Below are positions 23,641 to 37,260 of a DNA stretch of 64,000 nt, piece by piece. How positions within the stretch are numbered: position 1 is the first letter of the stretch; every line of letters begins with the position of its first letter. The notes below the pieces were generated by a model that was given only the letters and a program-made list of their open reading frames with translations, had not been told where the DNA came from and did not search any database. The translations under genes and the position numbers were made by a program. The DNA comes from a bacterium. Its GTDB lineage: Bacteria; Bacteroidota; Bacteroidia; Cytophagales; Cyclobacteriaceae. The stretch covers positions 1 to 64,000 of the forward strand of contig JANSWY010000018.1 of the NCBI GenBank assembly GCA_024743255.1. The letters are read 5' to 3'.

Positions 23641-25560
23641 GTGATAGATCAGACCACCATAGATGAATTAAAATCCCGTATCGATATAGTCGAAGTGGTG
23701 GGTGATTTTGTGACTTTAAAAAGATCTGGTCAGAATTATAAAGCGCTAAGCCCTTTCAATAACGAAAAGACACCTTCATTTTATGTTGTTCCTTCCAAAG
23801 GGATCTTTAAAGACTTTAGTAGCGGTAAAGGTGGTGATGCAATCACATTTGTGATGGAAGTGGACGGCCTAAGTTACATCGAGGCTCTAAAGTACCTGGC
23901 AAAAAAGTATGGTGTTGAAGTAATAGAGGAAATTCCAGACGATGAATATCAGGCTGCTCAAAATGAAAGAGAGAGTTTGTTTATTGTCCTGGGTTTTGCT
24001 CAGCAGTATTTTGAAGATCTACTTTGGAAAGATGATGAAGGTCGATCCATTGGACTATCTTACTTTAAGGAACGAGCATTTTCTGAAGAAACAATAAAGG
24101 AATTTGGTCTTGGTTATAGTCTGGAGGCCTGGGATGGCTTAATTAAAGCCGCCGATAAAAAGGGTTATAAACAAGAGTACCTTGAAAAAGCTGGACTTAA
24201 GGTTGTAAAGGAAGGCAAGGAGTATGACCGTTTCAGGGGAAGGGTAATATTTCCAATACACAATATCACCGGGAAAGTAGTTGCATTTGGCGCCAGGATT
24301 CTCAAAAAGGATAAAAAACAACCTAAGTACCTCAACTCACCAGAGACTGAGTTGTACCAGAAGAGTAAAATCCTTTATGGATTATACCAGGCCAAACAGG
24401 ATATCAGAAAGGAAGATAACTGTTATCTGGTTGAAGGTTATACCGATGTTATTTCTCTTCATCAGGCTGGAGTAAAGAATGTAGTTTCAAGCTCCGGTAC
24501 AGCACTTACTGAAGATCAGATTAAGCTTATTGGTCGGTATACCAAGAACATAACAGTACTTTTTGATGGGGATGCTGCTGGAATAAAAGCAGCTACAAGA
24601 GGTATTGACATGATTCTGGAGGGTGGTTTGGATGTGAAAGCCATAGCATTTCCTGAAGGAGAAGACCCTGACAGCTACGCTAAACAACTTGGTACCTCAG
24701 CATTTAGAAATTTTCTGGATACCGAAGCTACCGATTTCATAAAGTTTAAGACTTCTTTTCTGGTAGAGGAAGCAAGTTCAGATCCTCTGAAAAAGGCAAG
24801 CACTATAAAGGAAATCGTCAACAGTATTGCCAAAATACCAGATCCTATTAAACGCACCGTTTATCTGAAGGAGTGTAGTGGTTTATTAGATATTAGTGAA
24901 GCAGTTTTGGTTGCAGAGCTTAATAAACTACTCATTAGTGCAAGCAGGGATAAGAAAAACGCTCCACCAGAGCAAACCATTCCAATCCCAGAGGAGTTTC
25001 AGGAGGAAGAGGTCAAAGAATTTAATATCGATGATCTTGTTGATGCCTGGGAAAGGGAGAGTTTGAAGATGCTGGTCAATTTTGCAACTACGGTTGTGAA
25101 AGACGCTTCGGAAGACGAACAGTATTTAATAGCTTATTTTTTCTCAGAAACTGAGGATGTAGAATACAAAAACCCTGTTTACAAGAAAATACTTAACTTA
25201 TATCAAGAGAGATTTCATGAAGGTGAAATCATTACACCAGAATATTTGTTGGGACTAGATGATCAGGAGATCAAGAGTGTGGTGATCGATTTGATTACTG
25301 AAAAGTACGATGTAAGCGAATTGTGGTGGGAAAAATATCAAATAGCAATCAACAGGCAAGAAGATGAGCCAAGAGATGCAACATTTTTAAATATTGCCAG
25401 GTTGAAGTTTAGAATCATCCAAAAGATGATTGAAGACAATAAAAAAGATTTAGAAAAATCTGAGGATATAGAAAGTATCAGTAAGTTTCAGGAAAAGCAC
25501 CTGAAACTAAAACAAAAGGGAATGCAGATAGCGAAGATCCTTGGAAACGTAACAACATAG
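23641..25560 (+). CDS. dnaG: DNA primase with ligand-less CHC2 finger
   Basis: Makes RNA primers for replication with DnaB helicase. 639 residues: N-terminal CHC2-type domain (~1-95), catalytic core with TOPRIM motifs VEGYTDVISLHQAG and VLFDGDAAG, and a helical C-terminal DnaB-contact domain. Start is GTG at 23641; no in-frame ATG exists upstream before a stop. The zinc-finger positions corresponding to E. coli C40, H43, C61 and C64 are S37, N40, D58 and S61 with identical spacing, so the finger cannot bind zinc, although flanking residues (PFxNEKTPSF, GxGGDAI) are kept. First of four same-strand genes (ribBA, unknown, surE) with gaps of 8-18 bases. Confidence 0.96.
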   Translation: MIDQTTIDELKSRIDIVEVVGDFVTLKRSGQNYKALSPFNNEKTPSFYVVPSKGIFKDFSSGKGGDAITFVMEVDGLSYIEALKYLAKKYGVEVIEEIPDDEYQAAQNERESLFIVLGFAQQYFEDLLWKDDEGRSIGLSYFKERAFSEETIKEFGLGYSLEAWDGLIKAADKKGYKQEYLEKAGLKVVKEGKEYDRFRGRVIFPIHNITGKVVAFGARILKKDKKQPKYLNSPETELYQKSKILYGLYQAKQDIRKEDNCYLVEGYTDVISLHQAGVKNVVSSSGTALTEDQIKLIGRYTKNITVLFDGDAAGIKAATRGIDMILEGGLDVKAIAFPEGEDPDSYAKQLGTSAFRNFLDTEATDFIKFKTSFLVEEASSDPLKKASTIKEIVNSIAKIPDPIKRTVYLKECSGLLDISEAVLVAELNKLLISASRDKKNAPPEQTIPIPEEFQEEEVKEFNIDDLVDAWERESLKMLVNFATTVVKDASEDEQYLIAYFFSETEDVEYKNPVYKKILNLYQERFHEGEIITPEYLLGLDDQEIKSVVIDLITEKYDVSELWWEKYQIAINRQEDEPRDATFLNIARLKFRIIQKMIEDNKKDLEKSEDIESISKFQEKHLKLKQKGMQIAKILGNVTT

Positions 25561-25578: not shown

Positions 25579-26811
25579 ATGTCAGAAAGTAATATGCTTG
25601 ATAGTATTGAGGAAGCTATTGAAGCGGTAAAGCGTGGAGAAATAATAGTGGTAGTGGATGATGAAGACAGAGAGAATGAAGGAGACTTCATTTGTGCAGC
25701 AGAAGCTGTAACTCCTGAAATCATCAATTTCATGTCAAAAGAGGGGAGGGGATTGATTTGTGCTCCTATAATTGAGGAAAGGTGTGAGGAGTTGGAACTT
25801 GACCTAATGGTGGGAAAGAATACCGCAGCATTTGAGACTCCTTTTACAGTTTCAATTGATTTAATTGGATATGGCACTACAACAGGAATATCTACCTCCG
25901 ACAGAGCTAAGACAATCAAAGCTTTAGTTAATCCAGAAACTAAACCAGAAGAGCTTGGTAAACCAGGTCATATATTTCCTCTTAAAGCCAAAAAAGGTGG
26001 AGTGCTGAGAAGAGCTGGTCACACTGAAGCGGCCATAGATTTTGCCAGACTAGCGGGTTTTTACCCAGCTGGCGTATTGGTGGAAATTCTGAATGAAGAT
26101 GGAACCATGGCAAGATTACCAGATTGCCGTAAAGTTGCTGATAAGTTTAACTTAAAGTTAGTTTCAATAAAGGATCTAATTGCCTACCGAGTTGAGAAGG
26201 AGTCACTTATCGAGAAAGAGATTGATGTGAAGATGCCAACAAACTATGGTGATTTTCAATTAACTGCTTTTAAACAAACAAATACCGGTGAAACTCATTT
26301 AGCACTTTCCAAAGGTACCTGGACTGAAGATGAGCCAATACTTGTGAGAGTTCACTCTTCGTGTGTCACTGGGGATATTTTCCATTCTTTCAGGTGCGAT
26401 TGCGGGGACCAACTTCATGCAGCCATGGAAATGGTCGAAAAAGAAGGAAAGGGACTTGTATTGTACATGAATCAGGAGGGAAGAGGAATTGGCCTTATCA
26501 ATAAATTACGAGCCTACAAGCTTCAGGAAGAAGGCTATGATACAGTTGAAGCAAATCAAAAACTGGGGTTCCAACCTGATCAAAGAGATTATGGTGTTGG
26601 GGCACAGATTTTAAGGGCAATGAACGTAGGGAAGATAAAATTAATCTCTAATAATCCTAAGAAAAGAGTGGGGTTAATGGGTTATGGCCTGGAAATTGTT
26701 GATAATGTACCAATTGAAGTTAAACCTAATGAGCACAACCAAAAATATCTTGAAACTAAGAGAGATAAATTTGGACATGAAATTCTAGGACACTTCAATA
26801 AACAAGGTTAA
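25579..26811 (+). CDS. ribBA: Bifunctional riboflavin enzyme RibBA
   Basis: Fusion of 3,4-dihydroxy-2-butanone-4-phosphate synthase (residues ~1-205; [16 protein letters not shown] and [14 protein letters not shown]) and GTP cyclohydrolase II (~210-400), the two first steps of riboflavin synthesis. The cyclohydrolase zinc ligands are visible as [17 protein letters not shown], and its catalytic region as [11 protein letters not shown]. Length 410 is normal for the fusion. Starts 18 bases after dnaG. Both halves keep their catalytic residues, so both activities are expected. Confidence 0.96.
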
Positions 26812-34737: not shown

Positions 34738-37260
34738 TTAATAAGGATCAACGTCAAAAACGACACGAACTGATTTAAATTGCTTCATTCCCTCCAGTGC
34801 CATTAACTTTTCCAATAATAGCCTTTTGACAGCAGCCAGATTGATTTTATCACGTTCCAGCCTTACGATCAATTCGGTCAGGAACTGGTTTCTGATTTTT
34901 CCAATAATAGGTTCTGCTGGTCCTTTGATTCGTTGTTTTCCCAGCTCACTCTTTACCAAATTCATGTAGGTCTGAGCTGCGTCCCAACTCACCTGCCTAT
35001 CCCGGTCCTTGAATGTTATCTGAATTAATCTGAAAAATGGTGGATAGTGATATTTTTCGCGTTCAAGGATTTCGGATTGATAAAATCCTTTGAAATCATA
35101 ATTGGCTACTCTTTGAATCACATATTGCTCAGTATCATTTGTTTGTAGAATAACCTTACCAGGCTTATCTCTTCTACCAGCTCTTCCACTTACCTGAGTT
35201 ATTAATTGAAATGCCCTTTCATGAGACCTAAAATTTGGGAAGTGTATGATACCATCTGCATCTAGAATTCCAACTTTAGTTACTTTATCAAAATCCAGCC
35301 CTTTTGTTATCATTTGAGTCCCCACCAGAATATCGATTTGTCCATTTTCAAAATCTTCGATCATCTGTTGGTAACTGTACTTTTTTCTGGTGGTATCCAA
35401 ATCCATTCTTTGGATCCTGGCCTCAGGTAACATAGTCTTCAACTCTTCTTCAATTCTTTCTGTACCAATTCCCACAGTTCTGATTCGATTAGAATTACAG
35501 GAATCACAGTGAGTAGGAGAGGGCTCTTTATATCCACAATAATGACACTTCAGGTTATTTTGGTACATGTGATATGTAAGGCTCACGGCACAGTTGGGGC
35601 ACTTTGGAATATGTCCACAATCGTCACATGTCAGGAACGGAGCGTAACCTCTTCTGTTTTGAAAGATTATAGCTTGTTCGTTTTTCTCCAAGGTCTCTTT
35701 GAGCTCTTCGAATAACACTGATGAGAAATCTCCTTTGGCAAGCTTCTTCTTTCGCTGTGCCCTCATATCCGTTGGATGGATTTTAGGTACTTCTACATTA
35801 CCATATCTGGTATTTAGTTCTACAAGTCCATACCTATCATGTAAAGCGTTATAATAGCTTTCCAAAGATGGAGTAGCTGTACCCAGTAATACTTTTGCAT
35901 GATGAATCTGAGCTAATACAATGGAAGAGTCCCTTGCATGGAATCTTGGGTTTCTATCATATTGCTTAAAAGTTGTTTCATGCTCTTCATCAACAATAAT
36001 CAATGACAGATTATCAAAAGGTAGAAAAATCGCACTTCTAACACCGATTACAAAACTATATCTCTGAGAAATGATGCCGTTATAGACTTCTACACGCTCG
36101 CTATCTGAGTATTTTGAATGGAAGACTCCAAGGCTATCACCAAAGTGTTTTCTTAGTCTTCTGATGATCTGAGTAGTCAAAGCAATTTCAGGTACCAGAT
36201 ACAAAACTTGTCCACCTTCCTGAAGCGCCTGTTCAATCAGTTTGATATAGATTTCAGTCTTTCCACTTCCAGTAATACCCTGGAATAGCACAGTGTCATG
36301 CTTTTCAAATTGATCAATAATTTCATTGTAAGCTCTTTCCTGATCTGAAGAAAGTGTGAATTGGTATTGTTCTTCGTCATTAGAAAAGTCTACACGAGGA
36401 ATGACTACCTGAAATTCCTCGAAAACACCATTCTTGGTCAAAGTTTTTAAGGATGAATCCGATATGCCAGCTTTAGTCAGTTCTGCTTTCTGGGCACCCT
36501 TTGGATTCAGTTGTTGAAGTTCCATCACGGGAACAATCTGTAGGAACTTCAATAAAACATCAATTTGCTTAGGTTTCTTATCAAGGATCTGAAATAACTC
36601 CTCCAGTGCTTCTTCACCATAAGTGTATTGGCTAGCAAGTCTTATCCGCTTTTCATACTTGGGTTTAAACTTCTCCTTCAACTCTTCGAAAAGTAATATA
36701 ATGTCCTTCTGTAGTAGACTCTTTATGGTCGCTGATATTGATTTTATACCCAGTAGCTCTTCTATCTGTATATAACTCAATTGTTGATTATTGATCAGGT
36801 GATTAATAATCATTTCCTCACGATCAGATATCTCATCACCTTCGTATTCATTGATATCAAAAGTGGGATTGAGTTGTATGTAAGATTCACTCGAAAGCTT
36901 TAAACCAGATGGAATAGCGGCATTCATTACATCTCCAAGTGAGCTCATATAATAAGCGGAAATCCAACCGAAGAATTTCAACTGTTGTTCATTGATAATC
37001 GGTTCGGGATCAAGGCTGTCGAGAATGGACTTTGCTTCGTATTTTTCTGGTGGGTTTGTGTGAATTTTATAAATAATACCAGTCAGTATCTTCTTTCTTC
37101 CAAATTGCACAACCACCCTGGAACCCACCATAAGTAGGTCCACTAGATTGAATGGAATACGATATGTAAAAGTACCGTGAAGTGGCAGAGGGAGAATAAT
37201 CTCTGCGAAATAGGTAGTTTTTTCTCTATGTTCAGAAGGATTAAGATTCAGCTGACTCAA
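34738..37260 (-). CDS. priA: Primosomal protein N' (replication restart helicase)
   Basis: Restarts stalled replication forks by loading the replicative helicase. 840 residues: N-terminal 3'-DNA-binding domain, winged helix, DEAH-type helicase with Walker [13 protein letters not shown] and Walker [15 protein letters not shown], and the zinc-binding insertion with cysteines in [13 protein letters not shown] and [17 protein letters not shown]. Here the zinc ligands are intact, unlike in this organism's DnaG. The start is TTG at 37260, overlapping the previous stop as TTGA; the next Met (near residue 43) would remove part of the first domain. Last gene of the GSCFA-YyaL-priA run. Confidence 0.95.

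Follow-up and report, generated by a model that had tools for sequence, protein, structure and literature searches.

Replacement of all four zinc ligands in the N-terminal domain of a Cyclobacteriaceae DNA primase points to a recurrent, probably metal-free domain type

The DnaG primase encoded in the window (the whole stretch of DNA analyzed here, 64,000 nucleotides) has none of the four zinc ligands of its CHC2-type N-terminal domain, and a like replacement is seen in 90 of 227 DnaGs compared across the phylum. The replacement is real and recurrent, and these primases probably carry a working variant of a textbook zinc domain that does without the metal. In DnaGs of the zinc type, a pair of hairpins is pinned by the metal, and the domain is regarded as the reader of the priming trinucleotide.

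Results

The dnaG gene of the window and its N-terminal domain

The product of dnaG (Table 1) scores 455.6 bits against the bacterial DnaG family TIGR01391 (cut-off 283.6) and lies above the cut-offs of the Toprim families and of the helicase-binding family PF10410. Residues E265, D269, D309, D311, D342, and D344, as well as R145, R201, and K229 of the core motif, are present and do not vary across an alignment of 76 zinc-type and zinc-less DnaGs; we take these to be the catalytic residues of the enzyme. By these matches, the catalytic core and the helicase-binding part of the protein are ordinary. The genome that holds the window (6.6 Mb, 100% complete) was also searched for a second dnaG with an intact CHC2 domain, a check proposed in the initial annotation of this DNA; none was found in the whole genome, as PF01807 (Zn_ribbon_DnaG) gives a single match at E ≤ 10.

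Alignment with the CHC2 domain of the Aquifex aeolicus primase (2au3) places the C, H, C, and C of that finger on window residues 37, 40, 58, and 61, which bears out the initial claim that the four ligands have become S37, N40, D58, and S61. The register is constant, with residues 1–98 of the predicted model matching residues 4–101 of the Bacillus stearothermophilus domain (1d0q; 98 aligned) at an offset of three. The C-x2-H … C-x2-C ligand pattern of PF01807 is thus missing. Residues 1–95 contain no Cys at all, and the framework of the domain is kept, both as originally described; the PF01807 score is far above the cut-off (Table 1). By its sequence, the window domain is a PF01807 homologue but, judged by its ligands, no zinc finger.

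Ligand loss here is due neither to chance nor to error, because a genome of the same genus (G342), with S-G-D-S at the ligand positions, and the other zinc-less DnaGs show like replacement. A sequencing or assembly fault has a negligible probability, although the initial annotation had named a sequencing error as one of two things that could refute its reading: no point in its favor was found, the frame is open, and the zinc-less relatives have different sequences. Two other zinc proteins of the window keep their motifs. PriA retains four CxxC pairs, and the ribBA product, encoded next to dnaG, retains C-x10-C-x-C, presumably the GTP cyclohydrolase II zinc motif. In these two proteins, there is no sign of general zinc shedding, in agreement with what had been concluded earlier from PriA.

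Table 1. Features of the window discussed in the text (residues in the numbering of the window DnaG; counts refer to 90 zinc-less DnaGs).
Feature	Position	Strand	Codon	Evidence
dnaG, DNA primase	23641..25560	+	GTG (start)	639 aa, open frame
N-terminal CHC2-type domain, zinc-less type, residues 1–95	23641..23925	+		PF01807, residues 3–95, 107.5 bits (cut-off 24.9)
Ser37, for zinc ligand 1 (Cys)	23749..23751	+	AGC	S in 90/90
Asn40, for zinc ligand 2 (His)	23758..23760	+	AAT	alignment with 2au3
Lys57, just before ligand position 3	23809..23811	+		K in 90/90
Asp58, for zinc ligand 3 (Cys)	23812..23814	+	GAC	D in 62, C in 28
Ser60, co-changes with ligand loss	23818..23820	+		S in 90/90
Ser61, for zinc ligand 4 (Cys)	23821..23823	+	AGC	S in 73, T in 17
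Catalytic core	24046..24696	+		DNAG_N match 136–252, Toprim matches 262–352
DnaB-helicase binding region, residues 380–420	24778..24900	+		PF10410, 34.6 bits (cut-off 20.6)
ribBA	25579..26811			
PriA	34738..37260	-		

Predicted fold of the zinc-less domain

AlphaFold modeling of residues 1–440 with 76 homologues of both states gave a mean pLDDT of 90.8; with 88 zinc-less sequences only, block means for residues 11–90 were 92–97. Superposed on the zinc-bound domain from Bacillus (1d0q_A), either model gave an rmsd of 1.0 Å over 91 columns. In VIA-align comparisons, the zinc-less-only model matched 1d0q (Z 17.0, 98 aligned, 1.2 Å), followed by the 2au3 and T4 primase chains and then by human Twinkle (Z 5.8–5.9, 2.2 Å, 61 residues). 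The predicted model has the zinc-ribbon fold of PF01807, and the zinc-less domain is thus predicted to keep the fold of its zinc-bound relatives. This supports the earlier suggestion that the domain probably folds without metal as far as the fold is concerned, the absence of metal itself being a prediction. Because AlphaFold frequently renders metal sites well even when no metal is present, a confident model gives weak evidence that the domain is stable without one.

A shared signature of zinc-less DnaGs

The 227 DnaGs were not sampled at random. Thirty loci were the top scorers with PF01807 in the phylum, which favors the zinc type, another 30 were the best matches to the window, which favors the zinc-less type, and the remainder were taken singly or in small numbers from each genus or family; hence, 90 of 227 does not give the frequency in the population. 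Excluded before the count were two duplicates of the window (L001 and L032), L062 (the same as L136), a partial second copy (L241, SVCS at the ligand positions), a locus at a contig end (L007, CHCC), one with a broken frame (L189, CHCC), three mobile-type primases (L232, L238, and L239, all CHCC), and six loci without a DnaG hit (L233–L237 and L240).

The distribution of ligands is all or nothing. All four are present in 137 sequences, none in 60, and one in 30 (the third Cys in 28 and the His in two), and no sequence has two or three; the sequences with none or one make up the zinc-less set of 90. Throughout this set, S37, P38, F39, E42, S46, F47, K57, F59, S60, [ST]61, G62, and G65 are invariant. 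Residue 40 varies, the five commonest being T (55), S (16), N (8), A (5), and V (2). Position 60, always Ser here and in the window, is Gly in 129 of the 137 zinc-type sequences, and Lys57 is found in 104 of them. Most zinc-less sequences also have Lys or Arg at position 34 and a larger residue at 48; sites that co-change within Cyclobacteriaceae include 29, 33, 34, 36, 48, 50, 56, and 64.

Within Cyclobacteriaceae, the zinc-less sequences have a mean identity of 73% in the domain and 64% in the core (1770 pairs), compared with 71% and 64% for the zinc-type sequences (990 pairs). The zinc-less domain is therefore conserved at least as tightly as the zinc-type one. An all-or-nothing switch to one common substitute pattern suggests that zinc is dispensable to a replication domain that is ordinarily built around it.

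Distribution of the two states

Among 49 families (coded f1, f2, and so on), 38 had zinc-type sequences only, eight had zinc-less sequences only, and three (f1, f4, and f32) were mixed. Cyclobacteriaceae (f1), read as one genome per genus, had 40 of 77 genera zinc-type and 37 of 77 zinc-less, the state of each genus being judged from that single genome and one genus (g175) holding both states; seven further genomes among G296–G375 gave no usable sequence. All 11 sequences of families f15, f17, f28, and f49 were zinc-less. We take these families to be green sulfur bacteria because all 11 genomes encode the FMO bacteriochlorophyll protein, which is absent from four genomes of f12 and f32. Families f6, f7, and f9, which look like Flavobacteriales, were zinc-less in 15 of 15 sequences; f5 (9/9) and f8 (5/5) were zinc-type. 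Genus g23 of f4, with a match in 74 of 80 genomes, was zinc-less in all 30 loci read, with SADS in 18 and SADT in 12 at the ligand positions (G099 and G214 included). The initial annotation had pointed to similar metal-free primases in some Bacteroidota and had suggested that the N-terminal domains be aligned and ligand loss be mapped on a tree; the 90 zinc-less DnaGs show that the window is not unique, and the mapping is given below. On core trees, the zinc-less state changes repeatedly and is not fixed by lineage.

Of the 230 phage and 205 plasmid matches, six records were read. Three phage primases (L250, L251, and L252; Flavobacterium and Cellulophaga) have SVDS, SVCS, and STDS at the ligand positions and carry only part of the cellular zinc-less signature. 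The other three, a Bacteroides record, a Persicobacter plasmid, and a gut phage record, have the ligands. The Bacteroides record (L253, NZ_OY725947.1), filed as a Bacteroides finegoldii plasmid, may stem from a chromosome because its dnaG adjoins aromatic amino acid genes.

Some genomes stood out in other ways. G298 encodes a zinc-less DnaG of chromosomal type (L144, STDS) and a separate, distant primase-like protein with CHCC (L232); their coexistence indicates that this cell does not avoid zinc primases altogether. Seven genomes that are 91–100% complete (G308, G395, G551, G636, G649, G056, and G153), and likewise G396 (88% complete), gave no DnaG match at E ≤ 1e-5 when searched with the full-length DnaG of the window, for which assembly gaps or strong divergence could account. 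Two near-equal matches to the zinc-less domain in G418 (C135:8271-8543 and C125:2459-2731) represent a duplicate or a mixed assembly.

Phylogeny of the core and of the domain

We mapped the two states on trees of the DnaG core. A FastTree tree of all 227 sequences requires 17 state changes, at least 4 of them forced, and a quick IQ-TREE tree of 92 sequences requires 12, at least 3 of them forced. A careful tree of 53 sequences, chosen by hand from the 227, requires 12 changes (11–13 across bootstrap trees), at least 6 being forced by starred branches. Placing all 24 zinc-less sequences of this set in one clade was rejected (p-AU 5e-44). For Cyclobacteriaceae alone, a single zinc-less clade gave p-AU 0.002 with genome G562 and, in a 28-sequence set without it, a marginal 0.028.

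The tree of the domain itself, built from 75 columns after removal of the ligand shell (111 sequences; 7 of 108 inner branches starred), needs only 4 changes and groups the zinc-less sequences by lineage: Cyclobacteriaceae; f6, f7, and f9; and green sulfur bacteria, with f4 and f10 apart. The f32 sequence G109 joins the green sulfur bacteria on a long branch. Together, the core and domain trees indicate that the zinc-less domain probably had several origins and that, within Cyclobacteriaceae, the history of the domain is simpler than that of the core.

Identity outside the ligand shell was then compared at similar core divergence (core identity 68–78%). Pairs of the same state share 82% of domain residues (130 and 212 pairs, mean core 73%) and pairs of opposite state share 62% (20 pairs with a mean core identity of 70%). 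This contrast exceeds a handful of point changes, although compensatory changes arising in a burst might produce it as well. The same pattern is seen in f4, where the zinc-type pair G080–G122 has 78% domain identity at 83% core identity, and the zinc-less G099 has 55–61% domain identity to both at 81–84% core identity.

A mosaic dnaG gene

G562 belongs to genus g175, whose other 14 genomes appear to be of the zinc type, four of them from their sequences and ten from the score alone. Compared with its sister G530 and with a zinc-less sequence from G429, its DnaG is 81% and 59% identical, respectively, in residues 2–28, 53% and 97% in residues 29–60, and 63% and 91% in residues 61–95; in four blocks spanning residues 201–360, the values return to 82–95% and 55–75%. 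With the four ligand sites excluded, 39 of 43 informative sites in residues 23–149 agree with the zinc-less donor, compared with 11 of 92 in the rest of the sequence. The permutation p value was 1e-5, the floor of 100,000 permutations; the donor was picked after seeing the data, and the contrast is large. The genome is in about 400 contigs, but an assembly fault would have had to join such dissimilar sequences twice within a single gene, which is not likely. The dnaG of G562 thus looks like an intragenic mosaic, which would mean that the domain also moves by recombination. Silent sites in this comparison are near saturation, so the exchange was not recent.

A triplet scan of 105 sequences of the family listed 18 candidate children, several with p < 0.01, but the donor was again chosen after seeing the domain, so that small p values are inflated; all candidates except G562 are weak. 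Three control triplets gave p values of 0.82, 0.19, and 0.26. G099 (f4, g23) initially appeared as a second mosaic (p 1e-5) and was withdrawn after 30 g23 loci had been compared: 27 other g23 cores are 87–96% identical to that of G099, one locus was too short, and G214, which had served as the domain parent, itself has the odd core. The G214 sequence (L174/L278) combines a normal zinc-less domain with a core only 59% identical to that of G099 of its own genus.

Discussion

We consider it likely that the template-recognition domain of the window DnaG is functional and metal-free, with a cluster of Ser, Thr, and Asp (or Cys) standing in for zinc, and that this is a stable alternative domain type that arose several times in the phylum and has also been exchanged by intragenic recombination in Cyclobacteriaceae. 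In such a domain, Ser37, residue 40 (here Asn), Asp58, Ser60, and Ser61 would pin the two ligand hairpins without metal, probably through hydrogen bonds and tighter packing, for example by the larger residue at position 48. The Ser37/Ser60/Ser61/Asp58 cluster and the new packing would leave the template-reading surface in place, and priming and template choice would be retained. An excerpt of PMC5204125 supports a role of the DnaG zinc domain in reading the trinucleotide and describes K70 of the Clostridioides difficile primase, near the zinc ribbon, as affecting the preference for d(CCC) versus d(CTA), the corresponding residue in Geobacillus stearothermophilus being a histidine. By way of the alignment with Aquifex, Lys57 appears equivalent in position to K70, and because it is fixed in the zinc-less set, a CCC-type trinucleotide choice is predicted.

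Two other readings concern the state of the domain. One is that zinc or another ion is still bound through Ser/Thr, Asp, Asn, or a residue elsewhere; Asp and Asn can ligate metals, and position 58 is always Asp or a retained Cys. We judge this very unlikely given that position 40 varies, that position 58 alternates between D and C, that 55 of the 90 zinc-less sequences have no Cys or His in residues 25–71, and that sequences with two or three ligands, expected of a weakened metal site, do not occur. The other is that the domain is decaying and no longer recognizes the template, with the core and the helicase left to carry out priming. Such a loss of function can be envisaged because the zinc finger of human PrimPol was reported, in an excerpt of PMC4027207, to be essential for primase activity and because the inactive primase module of animal Twinkle, whose human chains match our model, suggests that such an arrangement is possible. 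We nevertheless regard decay as unlikely. The zinc-less domain is conserved like the zinc-type one and more strongly than the core, its signature (with Lys57) is fixed, the catalytic residues are intact, and only one dnaG was found in the genome.

A further reading concerns history: each switch could have arisen by parallel point substitution in place, with no exchange of domains, the discordance between domain and core coming from compensatory change. To this we give somewhat less than an even chance. The domain tree, grouping zinc-less sequences by lineage first, fits this course of events, as do residues 66–71, which follow lineage (e.g., DAITFV versus NVFTFV); silent sites are near saturation, so that DNA gives little proof of transfer. 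The identity gaps between states, overall and in f4, argue against it, with the proviso on compensatory bursts given above. So does G562, whose residues 2–28 and 201–360 resemble its own zinc-type genus, whereas residues 29–165 are zinc-less. Beyond the preferred reading, with its domain exchange in Cyclobacteriaceae, a broader scheme may be put forward tentatively, and we think it rather doubtful: two interchangeable N-terminal types of DnaG, zinc-bound and metal-free, would exist in the phylum and be swapped as a cassette by recombination inside dnaG, and with the metal-free type, chromosome replication would no longer depend on the zinc supply, possibly as zinc sparing in marine and sulfidic habitats.

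The N-terminal module of animal Twinkle has lost its zinc ligands. This primase-type module (7t8b/7t8c; PMC3610141, in part), whose fold matches our model, is without an active primase, described as inactive in an excerpt of PMC10557236. The window DnaG, by contrast, has intact catalytic residues and is the only DnaG found in its genome. The nearest precedent found is the D8–D9 region of Escherichia coli topoisomerase I (PF08272), which, according to an excerpt of PMC9369019, is zinc ribbon-like without cysteines and seems to preserve its DNA-binding mode. This region and the window DnaG domain are both zinc ribbons that lost their cysteines. In topoisomerase I, however, the ribbons form a repeat tail, whereas the DnaG domain is the single recognition domain of a primase, which has lost its ligands repeatedly and shows one case of domain exchange. 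The CHC2 domains of Bacillus and Aquifex are a close comparison as well: they share the PF01807 family, the predicted fold, the conserved framework, and the position in DnaG with the window domain and, for 2au3, the Lys before ligand 3, but differ in keeping all four ligands. Among the literature matches listed, from a search whose coverage leaves out most subscription journals, we found no published description of a zinc-less DnaG.

A widespread metal-free version of this domain would separate its fold and its reading function from the metal. Zinc-type and zinc-less relatives, together with a natural mosaic, provide natural pairs with which to probe the role of zinc, and the metal-free version bears on primase inhibitors aimed at the N-terminal domain. 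In Cyclobacteriaceae, a replication gene is seen to change its domain type repeatedly inside one family.
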